Below, piece after piece: positions 7,537 through 19,990 of a stretch of 27,748 nucleotides of DNA. A model generated the notes under the pieces. It was not told the DNA's origin and did not search any database. It saw only the letters and a list, made by a program, of their open reading frames with translations. This DNA is from a virus. Where the stretch lies: positions 1 through 27,748 of the IMG/VR virus record IMGVR_UViG_3300025421_000057; one strand, written 5' to 3'. Each line of letters begins with the position of its first letter. Within the stretch, counting starts at the first letter, position 1. A program made the position numbers and the translations under genes.

Positions 7537-7790
7537 TAGTAAAGTACCTCGTTTAGTTTCTCAATGTAGTGAAACGCTTTCTTCACGTCCTCTTCTGTCG
7601 CACCCTTGCGTCCTGCACGCATAGAGTATTTGATGATGTTACCCTTTAAGAATCCTATGAACTCCTGTGTGGTCAACACATTCTCCATTACTGTCCACGG
7701 CTGTATCGCCATGTCTTTGTAGTGGTTACCGCCTACTTGTTTGTCATCGGCTTTTGGAAACAGTTCTTGTTGTCTATCGTTTGAGATCAT
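7536..7790 (-). CDS. DUF3310 (SaV-like) protein
   Basis: The 84-residue protein contains the hallmark VGGNHYKDMAIQPW followed by FLKGNIIKYSMRAGRKG and a final helix, the DUF3310 signature found in very many phages near nucleotide-metabolism genes. Its function is not settled. The N-terminus DRQQELFPK contains QQELF, a loose match to the sliding-clamp-binding consensus. Start at 7790 is set by AAGGAGGG; the longer reading from 7814 has no SD. Confidence 0.9.
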   Translation of the reverse strand: MISNDRQQELFPKADDKQVGGNHYKDMAIQPWTVMENVLTTQEFIGFLKGNIIKYSMRAGRKGATEEDVKKAFHYIEKLNEVLY

Positions 7791-14548: not shown

Positions 14549-14571
14549 AAAAAACGGGTCAGACTGACCCG
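14549..14571 (-). terminator. 17-bp repeat hairpin, copy 1
   Basis: CGGGTCAGACTGACCCG (14555-14571) is a perfect inverted repeat around one base. On the minus strand it is followed by six T (14554-14549), the form of a rho-independent terminator. It lies 20 bases after the stop of the metallopeptidase gene. Confidence 0.75.
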
Positions 14572-14590
14572 AAAATCATGATTGCTGAAG

Positions 14591-15712
14591 TTACACGTAC
14601 GCATACACCGAGTCGAACAAGTCGATCAGTAATGTGTCAGGGTCTTCGACCCACGCACGAGCGAGTGCCTCGCTTATCCATTCATCCGTTATGCGACTGC
14701 GGTCGATCATCTTGATCGCCATGTCTACGTCCTCTGGGTACACCGCCTCAGCCATAAGCTCGAGCAAGAAGTCACACATACCTACCTGTGCATCGAGTAG
14801 TGCATCTTGTACGTCAGCCATGAAGCACTCTTTGTAAGACATCATGTCCTTGCCGTAACTAAATGAGTTGTCGGTAGTCTTGTCCCAGTTGTATGTATAG
14901 CCACCGTATGCGTAGTCTGACTGATCCCACTTGCTCTCACGTATCTTAGGGTCACGACTGGTTGGAAGTAAGTCCCAGTCCATGTGTATGACACGATCAG
15001 CAAGGGCTTGGAAGTGGACAAGGTCAAGCGACTCAAACTCGCTATGCTCACGGTCGTAGCCTACGCTGATATTCGTACACTCGGGGATGATGTCAACAAA
15101 CTCTGCGGTATCTGTATACACACCGCTATCGTCAGGCGAGTACATGAGCGCCATGCTGACATTGAGTGCATCGGATAAGTCCTGTGCAAACACATCGCTA
15201 CAACACCGTGACCAACCCTGATGTGTAATGACCGAGTCAATGCCACGCCTATCGAACGCAACCGCACGGTCAAACTCAGCGAGTAGCTCGGGATAGTTCT
15301 TAGCCACATACTTAGCACCGATGCCACCTACTTCCTCACCTTGCGTAAAGATATAGTAGCCATTCACACCCTCGTGCATCATGTGCATAAGCAAGGCAAT
15401 ACCCGCACCGTCATCGGCACCGAGGGGCGCACCACACGCAGACCATTTGGTTGCAGTCATGGTGATATTGTTCTTACCCTCGACCTTGTGCACAGTATCT
15501 ACATGAGATACGAATAGTGTGCGGTGTCTTGACTCGGTGCGGTAATCCACATGCAAATTGCCACACGCATCAATAAAGGACTTGTCCCATACCTCACGTG
15601 GGCATGTGGTTGCTATCCAATTGGTGAAGTCAATGTTGGTGATTGACTTGTGTGGTCGCTTAAGACTAAGTGCGTACTTGAGTGTTTTGTATAGTGTAGA
15701 TTTCTTATTCAT
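14591..15712 (-). CDS. M20-family metallopeptidase (peptidase T-like)
   Basis: The 373-residue protein has the full two-metal active site of M20 aminopeptidases: HVDT (H70, D72), LGADDGAGIA (D100), TQGEEVGG (E126, E127), AFDRRG (D154) and YDREHSEFE (H223). The LGADD-x-AGIA and FT-x2-EE-x-G patterns are closest to peptidase T. The last 120 residues, with Tyr-rich and acidic helices, are unassigned. I chose ATG 15712 with AAGGA over 15745. It may release amino acids from peptides or process a specific protein; such an enzyme is unusual in a phage. It overlaps the Asp/Tyr-rich gene by 8 bases. Confidence 0.85.
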   Translation of the reverse strand: MNKKSTLYKTLKYALSLKRPHKSITNIDFTNWIATTCPREVWDKSFIDACGNLHVDYRTESRHRTLFVSHVDTVHKVEGKNNITMTATKWSACGAPLGADDGAGIALLMHMMHEGVNGYYIFTQGEEVGGIGAKYVAKNYPELLAEFDRAVAFDRRGIDSVITHQGWSRCCSDVFAQDLSDALNVSMALMYSPDDSGVYTDTAEFVDIIPECTNISVGYDREHSEFESLDLVHFQALADRVIHMDWDLLPTSRDPKIRESKWDQSDYAYGGYTYNWDKTTDNSFSYGKDMMSYKECFMADVQDALLDAQVGMCDFLLELMAEAVYPEDVDMAIKMIDRSRITDEWISEALARAWVEDPDTLLIDLFDSVYAYV

Positions 15713-17003
15713 TTGTTTCTTCCTTGGTTGTTTGTTCAGGCGCATGGTCTGTGTGGTAAATGTTGCCGTCTATCTCGACAGAGTCGGTGCAGTCGTTTGT
15801 GTACCAGTTGAATGACTCCTCGCATTGCCAGCAGTCTTCTCTAAGCTCATACTCATTGCTATCCTCAGCGTAGCAGATGCGGTAATCGTCAGACTGGTAG
15901 TACTCACCATCGCTCTCAATAAAGATCACGTCCTCACGTCTGTGGTAGTCACCGTCTCTGTCACACACGATCTCATTGTCATCGAGGTAGTCTGTATCGT
16001 AGTAGTCACCTTGAACGGCAACGACATTGTCCTCGGGTATGTGGTACTGGTTACCTCTGCGTGAGTACGCATAGATGTAGTTGTTTATGCAAGTCTCACA
16101 CACGCCTCGGTCTTCATGTATGCCGACCCAGTAACCGTCACCGTCATCGTAACCGTCACCGCAATCCTCGCATGTGTTCTCATGTGCCTCACGTGTTACG
16201 CCTGCCGTGTTGTCCATCTCATACTCGCCGTCAGAGTCAATGAGGAAGTACCGTTCGCCTGATACAGACTTGAGCGTTGCCTGCTTTACGTTGCCGTCAA
16301 GATACGGTGCGACCCAGTCACCGTTGCGATGCTCGATAGCTTTGAGTTTGAGACCCTCCCAGTCGTTCGCTTTTGTATACCCCTGAGACTTGAGCCACGC
16401 CTCTAACTGCTCATCGCTATGCGAGTAGCCGTCATTGTTCTTGCGGTATGAGCGAACGAATATCTTGTTCTCAGGGTCGCTATCGTTGACTAGCGCACGA
16501 CCGACTGTGTCGTTGCCGTCCTCACGTACTGCCATAGCCCAACCGTAACGTGGGTCATAACATTCGTAGGGATGCGTAGCAAAAGAACTGTTGACCATGC
16601 AAGACCTTGGACCACGTTGCAAGTGGTAGATCATCTCGGCGGTTGTGCGTACGATCTTGATGCCGTTTGCCACATGTAATGCTTGGATGTCACGTATCTC
16701 ATGGTCGGACAAGTCAGGGAAATGTCTGCGCAGATACTTGCCAATGGTTGTAACAGTCTGACGATCTGCCTCACCTGCTCGGTCATCTTGTGTGTAAGCG
16801 ATGCGACCAGGGTCGGTGTCGGACTTGTAAGGATGCTCTAGCACCAGTTGATGCCAGTCTTTGGGACGGGCTAACTCGAACGCATCCCAGATCGCAGGAT
16901 GTACACGGTGTTTGTAGTACTCCCTATGATACCAAGGGCGTGATCTGCGCAGCACCTCCTGTAATAAAAAGACCCATTGTGTTGTAACAAGTTGCTTAGT
17001 CAT
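15705..17003 (-). CDS. Asp/Tyr/Cys-rich repeat protein
   Basis: The 432-residue protein is not assigned. The N-terminal 250 residues include a helical part and IVRTTAEMIYHLQRGPRSCMVNS. From residue about 280 there is a zinc-ribbon-like pair (CEDCG...CETC), then a run of short acidic units of the type DGDYHRREDVIF, DGEYYQSDDY, DSNEYELRED, ending CWQCEESFNWY and DGNIYHTDHA. These look like tandem beta units of 15-18 residues with more possible zinc sites. The strongly acidic tail suggests DNA mimicry or metal/protein binding. Common leader at the start; its stop overlaps the metallopeptidase gene, suggesting joint action. Confidence 0.75.
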   Translation of the reverse strand: MTKQLVTTQWVFLLQEVLRRSRPWYHREYYKHRVHPAIWDAFELARPKDWHQLVLEHPYKSDTDPGRIAYTQDDRAGEADRQTVTTIGKYLRRHFPDLSDHEIRDIQALHVANGIKIVRTTAEMIYHLQRGPRSCMVNSSFATHPYECYDPRYGWAMAVREDGNDTVGRALVNDSDPENKIFVRSYRKNNDGYSHSDEQLEAWLKSQGYTKANDWEGLKLKAIEHRNGDWVAPYLDGNVKQATLKSVSGERYFLIDSDGEYEMDNTAGVTREAHENTCEDCGDGYDDGDGYWVGIHEDRGVCETCINNYIYAYSRRGNQYHIPEDNVVAVQGDYYDTDYLDDNEIVCDRDGDYHRREDVIFIESDGEYYQSDDYRICYAEDSNEYELREDCWQCEESFNWYTNDCTDSVEIDGNIYHTDHAPEQTTKEETNE

Positions 17004-17173
17004 TTGCTTTCTCCTTTTAGTGTTTTAATGATCAATGCTTTTGCTTCCTTGATTGTGTCGAAACAGTTGTCACCGTTCTCATCCTCCAAGTAGGTATCGT
17101 TTGGCACATCGAGCGCCATGAACCCATTGCTCGTTTCTTGGATTTGATATTTCAAAACAGTTTGTTCACTCAT
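17000..17173 (-). CDS. 57-residue protein
   Basis: The frame from ATG 17173, with leader AAGGAGAAAGCAAATG, encodes MSEQTVLKYQIQETSNG, an acidic middle (YLEDENGDN) and the end IKTLKGESK. The last five codons are themselves the SD leader of the next gene, with an ATGA overlap. No family is recognised; a small alpha/beta fold with FDTIKEAKALI is likely. Confidence 0.75.
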   Translation of the reverse strand: MSEQTVLKYQIQETSNGFMALDVPNDTYLEDENGDNCFDTIKEAKALIIKTLKGESK

Positions 17174-17203
17174 TTGCTTTCTCCTTTGTGGTTAGTGTTT
17201 TAC

Positions 17204-17225
17204 AAAAACGGGTCAGTCTGACCCG
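17204..17225 (-). terminator. 17-bp repeat hairpin, copy 2
   Basis: CGGGTCAGTCTGACCCG (17209-17225) followed on the minus strand by five T (17208-17204). The stop codon of the 238-residue gene (17213-17215) lies inside the stem, and the arm encodes its final FGSD. Confidence 0.75.
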
Positions 17226-17929
17226 AAATCTTCTAGCCCATGCCACGTGTGTGGCACGGCATCGCTTGGCTTTAGCTGCTCGATGATCGTGATTGCTTGC
17301 TTCATCTGCGCTATGCGACTGGCTCGCTCCTCGGTAGGCTCGATCAGTTGCTCGGTCTCAGCGTTGCCCAGTTCCTTTTGGGTACGGACAAGCAGAGTTT
17401 GTTTCTGTTTGGTATTGGGTCGCTTGGTTCTTTGGAACGGTACTTTGCGCTTAGTCTTTGGTGCGTGGGGTATCGCCTCGAATAGCATGGCTATCTCTGT
17501 GCGCTTGGATGTGGGTATCCAATCCGTCCAATGATCTCCGTTGTTGGGGATGTCTGCATCTTTGGCTATGGTAGACGGGGTCATCGGCTTATCTGTCTCC
17601 TCATCTCTAAGCAACTGGAGTGCCTCAAATTTAATCAACAGTTTCTCCATCAGTTTGATGTACGCACTAAACGCAACATCTCGCTCGGGTTTGTGTTTGC
17701 CGTCATGCTTTGCCCCGACCTTGGCGTTGGAGAGTTCGTACTTGAGTGGTGAGATGAGCCGTGACCATAACTTTCTGTGTTGTAGTCTTAGCATCTTGTC
17801 TGACCTCTGCGCTTTCTTTGCTTTGAGTATCTCTGCTTTCTTTTGTTCGAGTGCATCAGGTTGTGCTATGCGTTTGCTTAGTCTGTTGTGCAACTCTTGC
17901 GGTTTCATTTGCATGTAAGTTTTTGTCAT
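17213..17929 (-). CDS. Unknown basic protein ending in hairpin-encoded FGSD
   Basis: The 238-residue protein is Lys/Arg/Gln-rich and helical, with MKPQELHNRLSKRI, a central LMEKLLIKFEALQLL helix, a very basic KTKRKVPFQRTKRPNTKQK region (about 158-176) and a C-terminal helix. It has no recognised domain; nucleic-acid binding is likely from the charge. Its last four residues and stop are encoded by the repeated hairpin, tying translation termination to the terminator stem. AAAGGA precedes the start. Confidence 0.7.
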   Translation of the reverse strand: MTKTYMQMKPQELHNRLSKRIAQPDALEQKKAEILKAKKAQRSDKMLRLQHRKLWSRLISPLKYELSNAKVGAKHDGKHKPERDVAFSAYIKLMEKLLIKFEALQLLRDEETDKPMTPSTIAKDADIPNNGDHWTDWIPTSKRTEIAMLFEAIPHAPKTKRKVPFQRTKRPNTKQKQTLLVRTQKELGNAETEQLIEPTEERASRIAQMKQAITIIEQLKPSDAVPHTWHGLEDFGSD

Positions 17930-17943
17930 GATTAAAATCCTTT

Positions 17944-18123
17944 TTAGGTTATTAGTCTTTGGTGGTGTCTAAGACTACTCATTGTGCCACAACTTTGGAC
18001 AGTTGGGAAGCCCCTTGAATACTGCGTTTGTGCCACTTCTGTCCGACATATATATCGTTTTAAAAGAACACTAAAGCCAAAGTAAAACAAAGAATGTCCG
18101 AACCAAATAAAGAATGAACACAT
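17944..18123 (-). CDS. Possible 59-residue membrane protein
   Basis: The frame from ATG 18123 encodes MCSFFIWFGHSLFYFGFSVL, a hydrophobic segment, then a basic stretch with two more cysteines, ending HHQRLIT. AGGAG lies 11 bases upstream, a little far. It ends 15 bases before the next start and fills an otherwise long gap. Composition (Phe/Cys-rich) could also reflect chance in AT-rich DNA, so confidence is low. Confidence 0.35.
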   Translation of the reverse strand: MCSFFIWFGHSLFYFGFSVLLKRYICRTEVAQTQYSRGFPTVQSCGTMSSLRHHQRLIT

Positions 18124-18235
18124 ATATAAATACTCTCCTATATATAAATATATATTTAAATAGATAAGTAAGTAAGACAGTTTTTAAGGACACGCAATAA
18201 CTACGGGGCTTGGCGACTGTCGGAAGTTAAGTCTG

Positions 18236-18280
18236 GTTGCTTAATCATGGATAGCTAATTTTTGAGTGTGATTAAGCAAC
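18236..18280. repeat. 12-bp perfect inverted repeat
   Basis: GTTGCTTAATCA (18236-18247) and TGATTAAGCAAC (18269-18280) are exact reverse complements separated by 21 bases. A further ACTAAGCAAC follows at 18287. It may be an operator, an RNA hairpin in the leader, or part of an origin. Confidence 0.6.
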
Positions 18281-18296
18281 TTTAAGACTAAGCAAC

Positions 18297-18319
18297 AAAA
18301 AACGGGTCAGTCTGACCCG
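18297..18319 (-). terminator. 17-bp repeat hairpin, copy 3
   Basis: CGGGTCAGTCTGACCCG (18303-18319), identical to copy 2, followed on the minus strand by six T (18302-18297). It contains the stop (18307-18309) and encodes the final GSD of the clamp-motif protein. Confidence 0.75.
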
Positions 18320-18522
18320 AAAAGATCGAGTTGCTTTGGTGCTTGGGTATACCATGCTTGGTAGTCTGACTCGGTCTCGAACACTAAGCCACGTTCCATG
18401 AGGTTGTGTTTCTTAAACACGTAGACCATGTGTTGCTTGTTGGGTGAGGGCTTGTAGTGTTGCACGTGGTAGTGCGTTGAGCCGATGGTGATTGTGCCGT
18501 GGTAGGTGATGGTTGGTTTCAT
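18307..18522 (-). CDS. Small protein with C-terminal QLDLF clamp motif
   Basis: The 71-residue protein has a beta-rich N-terminal part (MKPTITYHGTITIGSTHYHV), a basic middle (VYVFKKHN) and the end APKQLDLFGSD. QLDLF (64-68) is a perfect beta-clamp-binding pentapeptide, followed only by GSD, which is encoded by hairpin copy 3. AGGAG supports the start. It may bind the host DnaN clamp, like the protein at 11-196, to which it is otherwise unlike. Confidence 0.75.
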   Translation of the reverse strand: MKPTITYHGTITIGSTHYHVQHYKPSPNKQHMVYVFKKHNLMERGLVFETESDYQAWYTQAPKQLDLFGSD

Positions 18523-18523
18523 G

Positions 18524-18754
18524 TTAGCTCCTGTTGTTGAGTTCTAGTAGTTGTGCTTCGGTCTTACCCTCTAGGTATTCGACCATGCTTTTCTTGGATG
18601 TCCAGCAATTAAGCTCGGTGTCTAAGTGGTTGAATAGTTGCCATTGTTTGTCCGCTCCGATTACCTTGAAACCTACAACCCCAATGGGGTGTGAGGGTGT
18701 TTTGAATAGCACGTGGTACGTGCCTCGTCTGTGTCGTTTGACTATTGCTTTCAT
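18524..18754 (-). CDS. Unknown 76-residue protein
   Basis: The protein is not recognised. It opens MKAIVKRHRRGTYHVLF (basic, beta-like), has GVVGFKVIGADKQWQLF and ends in a helix EYLEGKTEAQLLEL. GGAG precedes the start. One base separates it from the clamp-motif gene, suggesting co-translation. Confidence 0.65.
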   Translation of the reverse strand: MKAIVKRHRRGTYHVLFKTPSHPIGVVGFKVIGADKQWQLFNHLDTELNCWTSKKSMVEYLEGKTEAQLLELNNRS

Positions 18755-18756
18755 GG

Positions 18757-18990
18757 TTACTCTCCAAAGGTTACAAATACTACGTGAGCGATACCGCTCG
18801 GGTAAATGGCGATCATGTCACCAAACTTTTCTACTCTCGCTTTGATGCCCGATAGACCTGCCCAAGCCTTAGCCCTACGGACAAGACTAAGATCGGATAC
18901 GTTATCAGGTAGGGCTTGCGTATGCCTACGCACCCATGAGTAGTTGGATTCGCCTGCAAATGTGTCTGTGTGTTCAAAGTGTACTTGCAT
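18757..18990 (-). CDS. Unknown 77-residue protein
   Basis: The protein is not recognised. It includes LVRRAKAWAGLSGIKARVEKF and a beta-like end MIAIYPSGIAHVVFVTFGE. GAGGAG is upstream of ATG 18990. It lies 2 bases from the next gene in the same direction, within a run of four short genes. Confidence 0.65.
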   Translation of the reverse strand: MQVHFEHTDTFAGESNYSWVRRHTQALPDNVSDLSLVRRAKAWAGLSGIKARVEKFGDMIAIYPSGIAHVVFVTFGE

Positions 18991-18992
18991 GA

Positions 18993-19133
18993 TTAAAACT
19001 CCTCGTTAAGAATACGGATTACCTCGGCATCGTCTCGATCTTTAAGAGCTTCGCAAAGCTCGTCATTTTCAAGGGCAAGTTGAGGGTCAATGGTGCGCTC
19101 GGCACACTCGGACATGAATTCTGTTTTAGTCAT
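18993..19133 (-). CDS. 46-residue acidic protein
   Basis: The frame from ATG 19133 with GGAG 6 bases upstream encodes MTKTEFMSECAERTIDPQ, then LALENDELCEAL and the end VIRILNEEF. It is acidic and helical, of a type frequent among small phage proteins. The stop is 2 bases from the next start. Function unknown. Confidence 0.7.
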   Translation of the reverse strand: MTKTEFMSECAERTIDPQLALENDELCEALKDRDDAEVIRILNEEF

Positions 19134-19172
19134 AGTGATCTCCAATTAAAAAGGTTAGACAAGGAATGGAAC

Positions 19173-19199
19173 AGCGCAGAGACCTCGCATCTTTGCGCT
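19173..19199 (-). other. Leader hairpin
   Basis: AGCGCA (19173-19178) and TGCGCT (19194-19199) form a 6-bp stem in the untranslated gap between hairpin copy 4 and the 46-codon gene. The half-site GTTAGACAA (19154) lies nearby. A transcript leader structure is possible. Confidence 0.35.
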
Positions 19200-19205
19200 C
19201 GAAAT

Positions 19206-19227
19206 AAAAACGGGTCAGACTGACCCG
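19206..19227 (-). terminator. 17-bp repeat hairpin, copy 4
   Basis: CGGGTCAGACTGACCCG (19211-19227), identical to copy 1, followed on the minus strand by five T (19210-19206). It starts 4 bases after the stop of the first leftward gene. Confidence 0.78.
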
Positions 19228-19231
19228 AAAA

Positions 19232-19666
19232 TTACTTAGTCATCGCTTTGATCTGTGCGAGTGCCTCAGCATGATACGCTTTGATCTCATCAATGCTCAG
19301 ACCTTGGTAGAGTTGCACAAAGGCTTTGACCTTAGTCTTACTGACCTTGATCTCCTCGGTGCGATCTGATGTATTTGCCTTAGTCTCGGCATGCCTGGTA
19401 GTGCCTTGTAGCATGAGCATGATGTCACGTACAACAGTCTTGGTTTTCTCATACTGTTTGTGTTTGCTATCTAGCATTACCTTGCCTGTTGATTCGCTCA
19501 CGTTGAATTTGCACTTAGTCTTAGAGCATGCCCACTCGATCACAATGGGTCTGCACTCCTCGACTGTTGCGTATCCTGCGTCTCGCATACCCTTGATGAG
19601 TTGGACACGTGCAGTAGCAAACGTGTTGAGTGTTGTAAAGGCTTGTTGTTTGTTTTGAATTGTCAT
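19232..19666 (-). CDS. Unknown 144-residue protein, first leftward gene
   Basis: The protein is not recognised. It is helical and basic, with a central Cys pair (WACSKTKCKF) and long charged helices, ending YHAEALAQIKAMTK. AGGAGAAAGC is the leader. As the first gene after the leftward promoter it is probably made early and could be a regulator or host-takeover protein. It is followed at once by hairpin copy 4, which could limit transcription of the next genes. Confidence 0.7.
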   Translation of the reverse strand: MTIQNKQQAFTTLNTFATARVQLIKGMRDAGYATVEECRPIVIEWACSKTKCKFNVSESTGKVMLDSKHKQYEKTKTVVRDIMLMLQGTTRHAETKANTSDRTEEIKVSKTKVKAFVQLYQGLSIDEIKAYHAEALAQIKAMTK

Positions 19667-19768
19667 AATGCTTTCTCCTAAAAGTTAATGAATGTCAACG
19701 GCTCTCACCTATTGACAATTCCATTGTAGAACAAGGGGGTATTTGATCGCCTCGAACTGGGTACTTTA

Positions 19769-19790
19769 GGGTCAGTTTGACCCATTTTTT
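19769..19790 (+). terminator. Variant repeat hairpin, opposite orientation
   Basis: GGGTCAGTTTGACCC (19769-19783) then A and six T (19785-19790) on the plus strand. It is the same stem as the four minus-strand copies with one loop change but inverted, so it could stop rightward read-through or serve as a binding site. Confidence 0.5.
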
Positions 19791-19903: not shown

Positions 19904-19933
19904 ATTATAAAAAATCCAAACACCTATTGTCTA
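19904..19933 (-). promoter_or_regulatory. Leftward sigma70-like promoter
   Basis: On the minus strand TAGACA (19933-19928) and a perfect TATAAT (19909-19904) are separated by 18 bases. Transcription would start near 19897 and run into the leftward gene block beginning at 19666. The -35 box is inside the dyad at 19925-19946, so a bound repressor would block it. Confidence 0.65.
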
Positions 19934-19946
19934 ACGTTTGACAATA
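19925..19946. promoter_or_regulatory. Operator-like dyad, copy 2
   Basis: TATTGTC and GACAATA form 7-bp arms around TAACGTTT. The inner TGTCTAACGTTTGACAA (19928-19944) matches the site at 1881-1897 in 16 of 17 bases. Overlap with the -35 box suggests a regulator binding site; the helix-turn-helix protein at 154-447 is one candidate ligand. Confidence 0.55.
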
Positions 19947-19952
19947 CAATAT

Positions 19953-19990
19953 AAAAAAACCCCCCAAGTTGATTAGTGCAACGTTGGGGG
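19953..19990 (-). terminator. Rho-independent terminator-like hairpin
   Basis: CCCCCAA (19961-19967) pairs with TTGGGGG (19984-19990); an inner TTG/CAA extends it. On the minus strand the stem is followed by seven T (19959-19953). It would stop leftward transcripts arriving from the late region just before the leftward promoter. Confidence 0.6.

Follow-up and report, generated by a model that had tools for sequence, protein, structure and literature searches.

The window analysed here is a 27,748-nucleotide (nt) stretch of viral DNA (IMG/VR virus record IMGVR_UViG_3300025421_000057, positions 1 to 27,748) that carries a strict palindrome at five places in a leftward operon, around the gene for a small basic protein. 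We propose that these palindromes are the cognate recognition sites of that protein (window 19232-19666), which would be autoregulated and stoperator-like; we put the probability of this reading at about 0.58. Comparison of related phages shows that sites and protein form a matched set, private to the phage type, whose members change together. Because all copies change with the neighbouring gene, each freshwater phage strain seems to own a matched regulator-and-site code. The comparison draws on metagenomic contigs, simple open reading frame (ORF) calls and monomer structure models.

Leftward genes, a DNA polymerase gene among them, are opposed in the window to rightward structural genes (terminase, phrog_38; portal, phrog_1216), and the sites, numbered here 0 to 4, adjoin the point of divergence. 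They are listed with the proposed regulator gene, and with the homologous sites of L010, a close relative of the window phage:

19769..19783, plus strand: site 0, GGGTCAGTTTGACCC, 15 bp; upstream of the regulator gene, where the leftward operon presumably has its leader
19232..19666, minus strand: proposed cognate regulator gene, 144 aa, pI 9.5, assigned to a new family; first leftward ORF
19211..19227, minus strand: site 1, 4 nt 3' of the regulator-gene stop; the homologous site in L010 is GGGGGAATTCCCCC
18303..18319, minus strand: site 2, overlapping the stop of a 71-aa ORF, with GGGGGGAATTCCCCCC as its L010 counterpart
17209..17225, minus strand: site 3, proposed cognate site, overlapping the stop of a 238-aa ORF
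14555..14571, minus strand: site 4, proposed cognate site, reading CGGGTCAGACTGACCCG on the plus strand, 19 nt 3' of an M28-peptidase-like gene

Sites 1 to 4 are exact 17-bp copies of CGGGTCAG[A/T]CTGACCCG. An earlier note on this DNA had reported them, a fifth copy and the T-runs beside them, and all were found where it placed them; with up to three mismatches allowed, the window holds 5 matches, against 0.02 expected from dinucleotide shuffles. Sites 4, 3, 2 and 1 are followed on the minus strand by runs of 6, 5, 6 and 5 T, respectively, and the T-run of site 0 is on the plus strand. Site 0 had been described as an inverted variant, which is not accurate: its arms are the same as those of the other four copies, and only the centre (GTT) and the flanks differ. 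The central triplet is not constant (GAC/GTC/GTC/GAC in sites 4 to 1) and is found both ways round with respect to the genes. All five sites are identical in a 44-kb contig that is 99.9% identical to the window over 13 kb.

One line of evidence comes from phages that are nearly identical apart from these elements. Over the divergent region and terminase, L010 and the window share 97.6% identity, and two blocks between the sites match at 96-99%; all three of its homologous sites are of the GGGGGAATTCCCCC type and the 144-aa gene is replaced, the regulator being the only sizeable gene replaced along with the sites. L009 is 93% identical to the window on both sides, yet it has GGGAAG-n4-CTTCCC five times, together with a different gene. 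Between L054 and L056, whose terminases are ~100% identical and whose regulators are 68% identical, four homologous sites change symmetrically from GGGACA to GGAACA and undergo a deletion in the centre, with the flanks still alignable. We note that a single L054-type site (GGGACACGTTGTCCC) lies near position 5088 of L056 in a 99.3% identical block, the other L056 sites being AGGAACACGTGTTCCT; it is possibly a recent recombination import.

The same pattern holds across 47 non-redundant phages, in a pairwise table that excludes the truncated terminases of L042 and L049. At least 5/6 of the arm is common to the pair in all 53 pairs with regulators at least 50% identical, and none of the 16 pairs with terminases at least 94% identical but regulators less than 35% identical has identical arms. 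Palindrome identity correlates with regulator identity (Spearman 0.39) rather than with terminase identity (0.07). The partial correlation between regulator and palindrome given terminase is 0.36, a value reached in 0 of 999 permutations, in a table that included the two truncated terminases. This co-variation with one gene, across dozens of phages, strongly supports the earlier note's suggestion that a phage factor binds the repeats, as opposed to their being independent terminators.

The palindrome was also sought at gene ends of related phages, as had been suggested, and 31 of the 32 terminase relatives with enough upstream sequence carry at least three copies of a version of their own, different in sequence; in shuffled controls, the best count was 1 in 157 of 160 and 2 once. 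Most relatives have 3-6 strictly identical copies, largely directly 3' of stop codons. More than 20 distinct half-sites occur among these phages, even where the remaining sequence is 93-98% identical; palindromes at the corresponding place include GGGAAG-n4, GGGGTA-n4, GCAGACA-n3, GGGTAG-n4, GGGGAG-n4, GGAGAG-n3, GGGGAA-n3, TGGGAC-n4, GGGACA-n3 and AGGAAC-n4, among others. Within a genome the arms are invariant, with 145 exact sites against 5 one-mismatch sites (~1 expected by chance). We found CGGGTCANNNTGACCCGTTTT in 73 viral stretches, often in several copies each, and GGGTCANNNTGACCC 2-7 times in each of 18 viral records (reversed control, 0); in most of the ~60-kb records with GGGTCANNNTGACCC, the sites are restricted to one stretch of a few kb. 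A host-derived terminator family was considered and rejected: 84,980 bacterial and archaeal genomes yielded just 20 stretches with a single site each, against the 73 viral stretches. No comparable reiterated set was found in the cultured relatives HTVC027P, HTVC023P, 023Pt_psg01 and DSL-LC04.

Sites and gene lead to one another in searches from either side. A leftward ORF with the reiterated palindrome directly 3' of its stop is present in 59 of 65 loci, among which a few assignments may be wrong ORFs (L048, L059). Retrieval by palindrome alone recovered the regulator protein in 68 of 73 stretches, and in all 77 palindrome-retrieved loci a site overlaps the regulator stop or lies 2-20 nt 3' of it. 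Conversely, loci newly retrieved by regulator query (L192-L200, L203) carry the expected half-site or a one-step variant: GGAGAG-n3 in L192-L196 and L198, GGAGAG-n4 in L197 (52% identical protein), GAGAGA-n4 in L199 and L200, and GGGACA-n3 in L203. We had expected L091, which has an L010-like regulator, to contain literal GGGGAATTCCCC, and it does not; half-site and spacing are as in GGGGAATTCCCC, the centre is different (GGGGGATTTCCCCC-type, four times), and the palindrome is GGGGGA-n2.

The regulators are basic in all 53 proteins tested (pI 8.9-10.5) and gave no Pfam, PHROG or PDB sequence match of note; two AlphaFold2 models (predicted local distance difference test scores 80.6 and 76.5) gave no fold match at E < 0.001. 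By these searches the family is new. The A1-class model has a helix-helix-hairpin-helix-helix arrangement with a C-terminal helical tail, and the A2-class model an all-helical core. Profile comparison unites A1, A3 and A4 (hhalign 96-98%), and A2 has at most the C-terminal tail in common with A1 and A3 (hhalign ~50-57%); at least two unlike N-terminal types thus partly share a tail of ~28 aa. In the A1-A4 alignments this tail, common to several unlike regulators, reads [DK]xVxx[LI][VI]xx[FY]xx[LM][TS]xAExxRF, and the tail of UMO76074.1, a Planktothrix phage protein (phage Pag-Yong1), resembles it (compare L187:7852-8415). The tail may be an effector or dimerisation part.

Site position points to gene ends. 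Sites lie at most 60 nt 3' of an ORF stop in 85 of 145 cases, most commonly at 1-10 nt; most of the rest surround the regulator gene or fall to spurious overlapping ORFs, simple ORF calling making the counts of sites inside genes unreliable. The cultured-phage record Pag-Yong1 has the same architecture as the window relatives: its 25 GTTCA-n3-TGAAC sites also flank the first leftward gene, UMO76074.1, and 19 of them are at most 60 nt 3' of annotated genes, against 12% expected, with gene ends taken from the published annotation. In the window, the palindrome does contain the stop codons of the 238-aa and 71-aa ORFs, and GSD is the C-terminus of both proteins, as the earlier note had observed. 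Its further claim, that the palindrome is used as stop codon and C-terminal code, describes a by-product of position: the GSD tail is there because the site overlaps the reading frame, and the 231-aa L009 homologue of the 238-aa protein has no GSD end, its site lying 29 nt past the stop.

We favour recognition of the sites as duplex DNA, because many classes have no U-tract, some sites are inside a coding frame, and the centre is variable in orientation. Indeed, several classes have one site within the regulator reading frame, for example at codons 22-27, ADIESA in L015 and ADKSSA in L053, and such internal coding sites appear hard to reconcile with termination. Several observations nonetheless count against a cognate DNA-binding regulator. 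Neither AlphaFold2 model shows an identifiable DNA-binding fold. Centre complementarity depends on the class (22 of 29 GGGTCA sites versus 2 of 18 GGGACA sites), and the arms are more strictly invariant than those of usual operators. Half-sites of related regulators differ in spacing by 1 bp (L054/L056, L043/L197), which weighs against a rigid DNA dimer, because such a dimer would not easily tolerate the change. Lastly, L032 has the gene and lacks the reiterated palindrome set. L032, L035 and L039 each have a gene at the regulator position and one or two palindromes only (GGGTGAGGTTTCACCC), possibly a decayed or minimal form.

The main rival is that the cognate protein reads the palindrome in the transcript, folded into an RNA hairpin, and acts as an antiterminator, a protector of messenger RNA 3' ends or a processing factor, by the logic of lambda N and boxB. 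We consider this unlikely, although it accounts for several of the observations above: the sites lie a few nt past stops, where 3' hairpins would form, the stems fold well as RNA, and a hairpin loop would readily accommodate 1-bp changes in spacing. Phage-private specificity is, moreover, known for antiterminators. In lambdoid N-boxB/nut antitermination, the boxB RNA element is asymmetric and precedes the terminators. Both systems pair, privately in each phage, a small basic protein with an early-operon site able to form a hairpin; here, however, the sites are symmetric and at gene ends, and some are inside the regulator ORF, where ribosomes would disrupt them. No loop is conserved, since the central triplets vary and occur in both orientations, and the complementary centres of the GGGTCA class extend past a hairpin loop. 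A test of RNA recognition by G-U wobble was dropped, as the imperfect sites are too few (5).

Rather a long shot, in our estimate, is that the palindromes are intrinsic (Rho-independent) terminators in the early operon that selection or gene conversion has made alike, with no cognate protein involved. The window copies do resemble such terminators, with a stem of ~-9 to -12 kcal/mol as RNA followed by U5-6 on the gene strand, and at least 5 of 9 nt are T at 14 of 22 GGGTCA-class sites 3' of genes. The U-tract is not, however, general in the palindrome family, being absent from many other classes (GGAGAG 0/3, GGGAAG 0/3, GGGGAA 0/4) and from the Pag-Yong1 sites, where no T-tract was found. The terminator role in the earlier note is thus possible for the window copies and does not hold as the general function, most classes lacking a U-tract and some sites lying in the regulator ORF. 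Terminators can differ in sequence and absorb compensatory changes, whereas 145 sites here are exact, and the tight co-variation with one gene would be left unexplained.

An even longer shot is that a sequence-specific nuclease or recombinase acts at these sites, or that they bound mobile gene cassettes (attC-like or T4 PeSL-like), with recombination spreading them. One similarity breakpoint between the window and L009 falls at a site (14553), and small ORFans between sites are gained and lost. The T4-type promoter early stem-loops (PeSL) are mobile regulatory cassettes with an early promoter beside each stem-loop, and they too are reiterated between variable early genes. Unlike in T4, the stem sequence here is phage-private and tied to one protein, and no sigma70-like promoter was found in the gaps 3' of the sites at 14555, 17209, 18303 and 19211, a search that did not cover other promoter types. 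The protein has no recombinase or nuclease signature. Homologous sites in L010 and L056 change in place while the intervening DNA and flanks remain, so that they are not merely carried by cassettes; the spreading mobile element suggested earlier finds no support in this.

Least credible are dispersed centromere, replication or packaging sites of a partition- or initiator-like protein (compare phage N15 and ParB-parS): a small plasmid-type protein binding several strict palindromes would give a similar picture, and autoregulation is common there, but the sites follow gene 3' ends rather than forming a cluster, and neither a tyrosine integrase (PF00589) nor a ParA-type ATPase (PF13614) was found in any of the relatives' 16 ~60-kb records, in searches whose positive controls worked and which did not cover other modes of lysogeny.

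For the preferred reading, in which a cognate protein binds the palindromes, we propose a mechanism that follows the order of these features on the minus strand:

19904..19933: candidate leftward early promoter, TAGACA-18-TATAAT, named from its 11/12 consensus matches
18524..19145: small ORFan genes (76, 77 and 50 aa) lying from site 1 to site 2, with L010 counterparts that are in part 96-99% identical despite the differing sites
18307..18522: 71-aa ORF, ending in site 2
17213..17929: 238-aa ORF whose end lies in site 3, with homologues in L009 and L043
14591..17173: the three genes that separate sites 3 and 4, encoding 57 aa, 432 aa (phrog_6980) and the M28-like peptidase

The regulator would be the first gene of this leftward, probably early, operon. 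A transcript from the candidate promoter (19933-19904) would run first through site 0, the regulator gene and site 1, next through the small genes and site 2, and then through the 238-aa gene, site 3, three further genes and site 4. The protein, probably dimeric, would bind the sites in their double-stranded DNA form and, once accumulated, would obstruct elongation at one gene end after another as well as at its own gene, a roadblock that would bring negative feedback and a staged, autoregulated shut-off of the early operon. We infer the roadblock step from the order of sites and genes, on the precedent of stoperators (PMC6550527, PMC9283540). For GGGTCA-class phages, the window among them, 3' sites with a U-tract may also serve as weak intrinsic terminators. 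The probable reason why specificities diversify is that a phage could otherwise be repressed by another phage, or by a resident element, of the same specificity.

That precedent is the stoperator/repressor system of Cluster A mycobacteriophages such as L5, Bxb1 and TipsytheTRex (PMC6550527, PMC9283540). As there, many sites appear to serve one phage protein and lie mostly at gene junctions rather than promoters (85 of 145 sites; 19 of 25 in Pag-Yong1), the phage-type-specific motif correlates with repressor divergence (here, site and regulator co-vary), and an autoregulatory site is present at the regulator locus. In contrast, our sites are palindromes of 15-17 bp rather than asymmetric ~13-mers in fixed orientation to transcription; there are 3-7 in one region (25 in Pag-Yong1) rather than 20-30 genome-wide; the regulator, of ~140 aa, has no helix-turn-helix (HTH) or known domain, in place of an N-terminal HTH plus stoperator domain; and near-identical genomes bear wholly different specificities. 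Because three stoperator-defining features were not found (asymmetric site, HTH/stoperator protein, integrase or ParABS), we place the system among regulators with dispersed sites, as a variant whose protein family has no name.

We suggest more tentatively, as a possibility that we rate well short of even, that this is a new phage control and identity system, in which hypervariable small orphan proteins and private palindromic codes at early-gene ends, in abundant freshwater phages with no detectable integrase, would define superinfection or competition groups outside classical lysogeny through wholesale specificity swaps between near-identical phages. Literature searches found no description of this regulator/palindrome system. 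An unannotated, fast-evolving gene family is here linked to its putative recognition sites by sequence alone, and dozens of natural protein-site pairs differ by one or a few bases, such as GGGACA to GGAACA in L054/L056, making the evolution of regulator-site specificity, and the joint switching of scattered sites, directly testable. The pairing also suggests an immunity-like layer of specificity in environmental phages not known as temperate, and would give a way of predicting which phages cross-repress.

Several other elements of the window accompany the operon. The M28-family peptidase-like gene, in the phage early region, is at 14591-15709 on the minus strand (PF04389, phrog_4191). A long inverted repeat, AGTCTggTTGCTTAATCA...TGATTAAGCAActttaAGACT, occupies 18228-18287, in a ~350-nt non-coding stretch from site 2 to the 238-aa gene. 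A second palindrome, TTGTCTAACGTTTGACAA, at 19927-19944, overlaps the candidate leftward promoter and has weaker versions at 1881-1898 and 7770-7787; perfect versions, TGTCTAACGTTAGACA, lie ~700-740 nt upstream of the terminase in L009, L011-L013, L055 and L070, and this palindrome is conserved across these phages, unlike the phage-private ones. Directly upstream of the candidate promoter, at 19950-19990 on the minus strand, is a strong terminator-like hairpin, CCCCCAACGTT...AACTTGGGGGGTTTTTTT.

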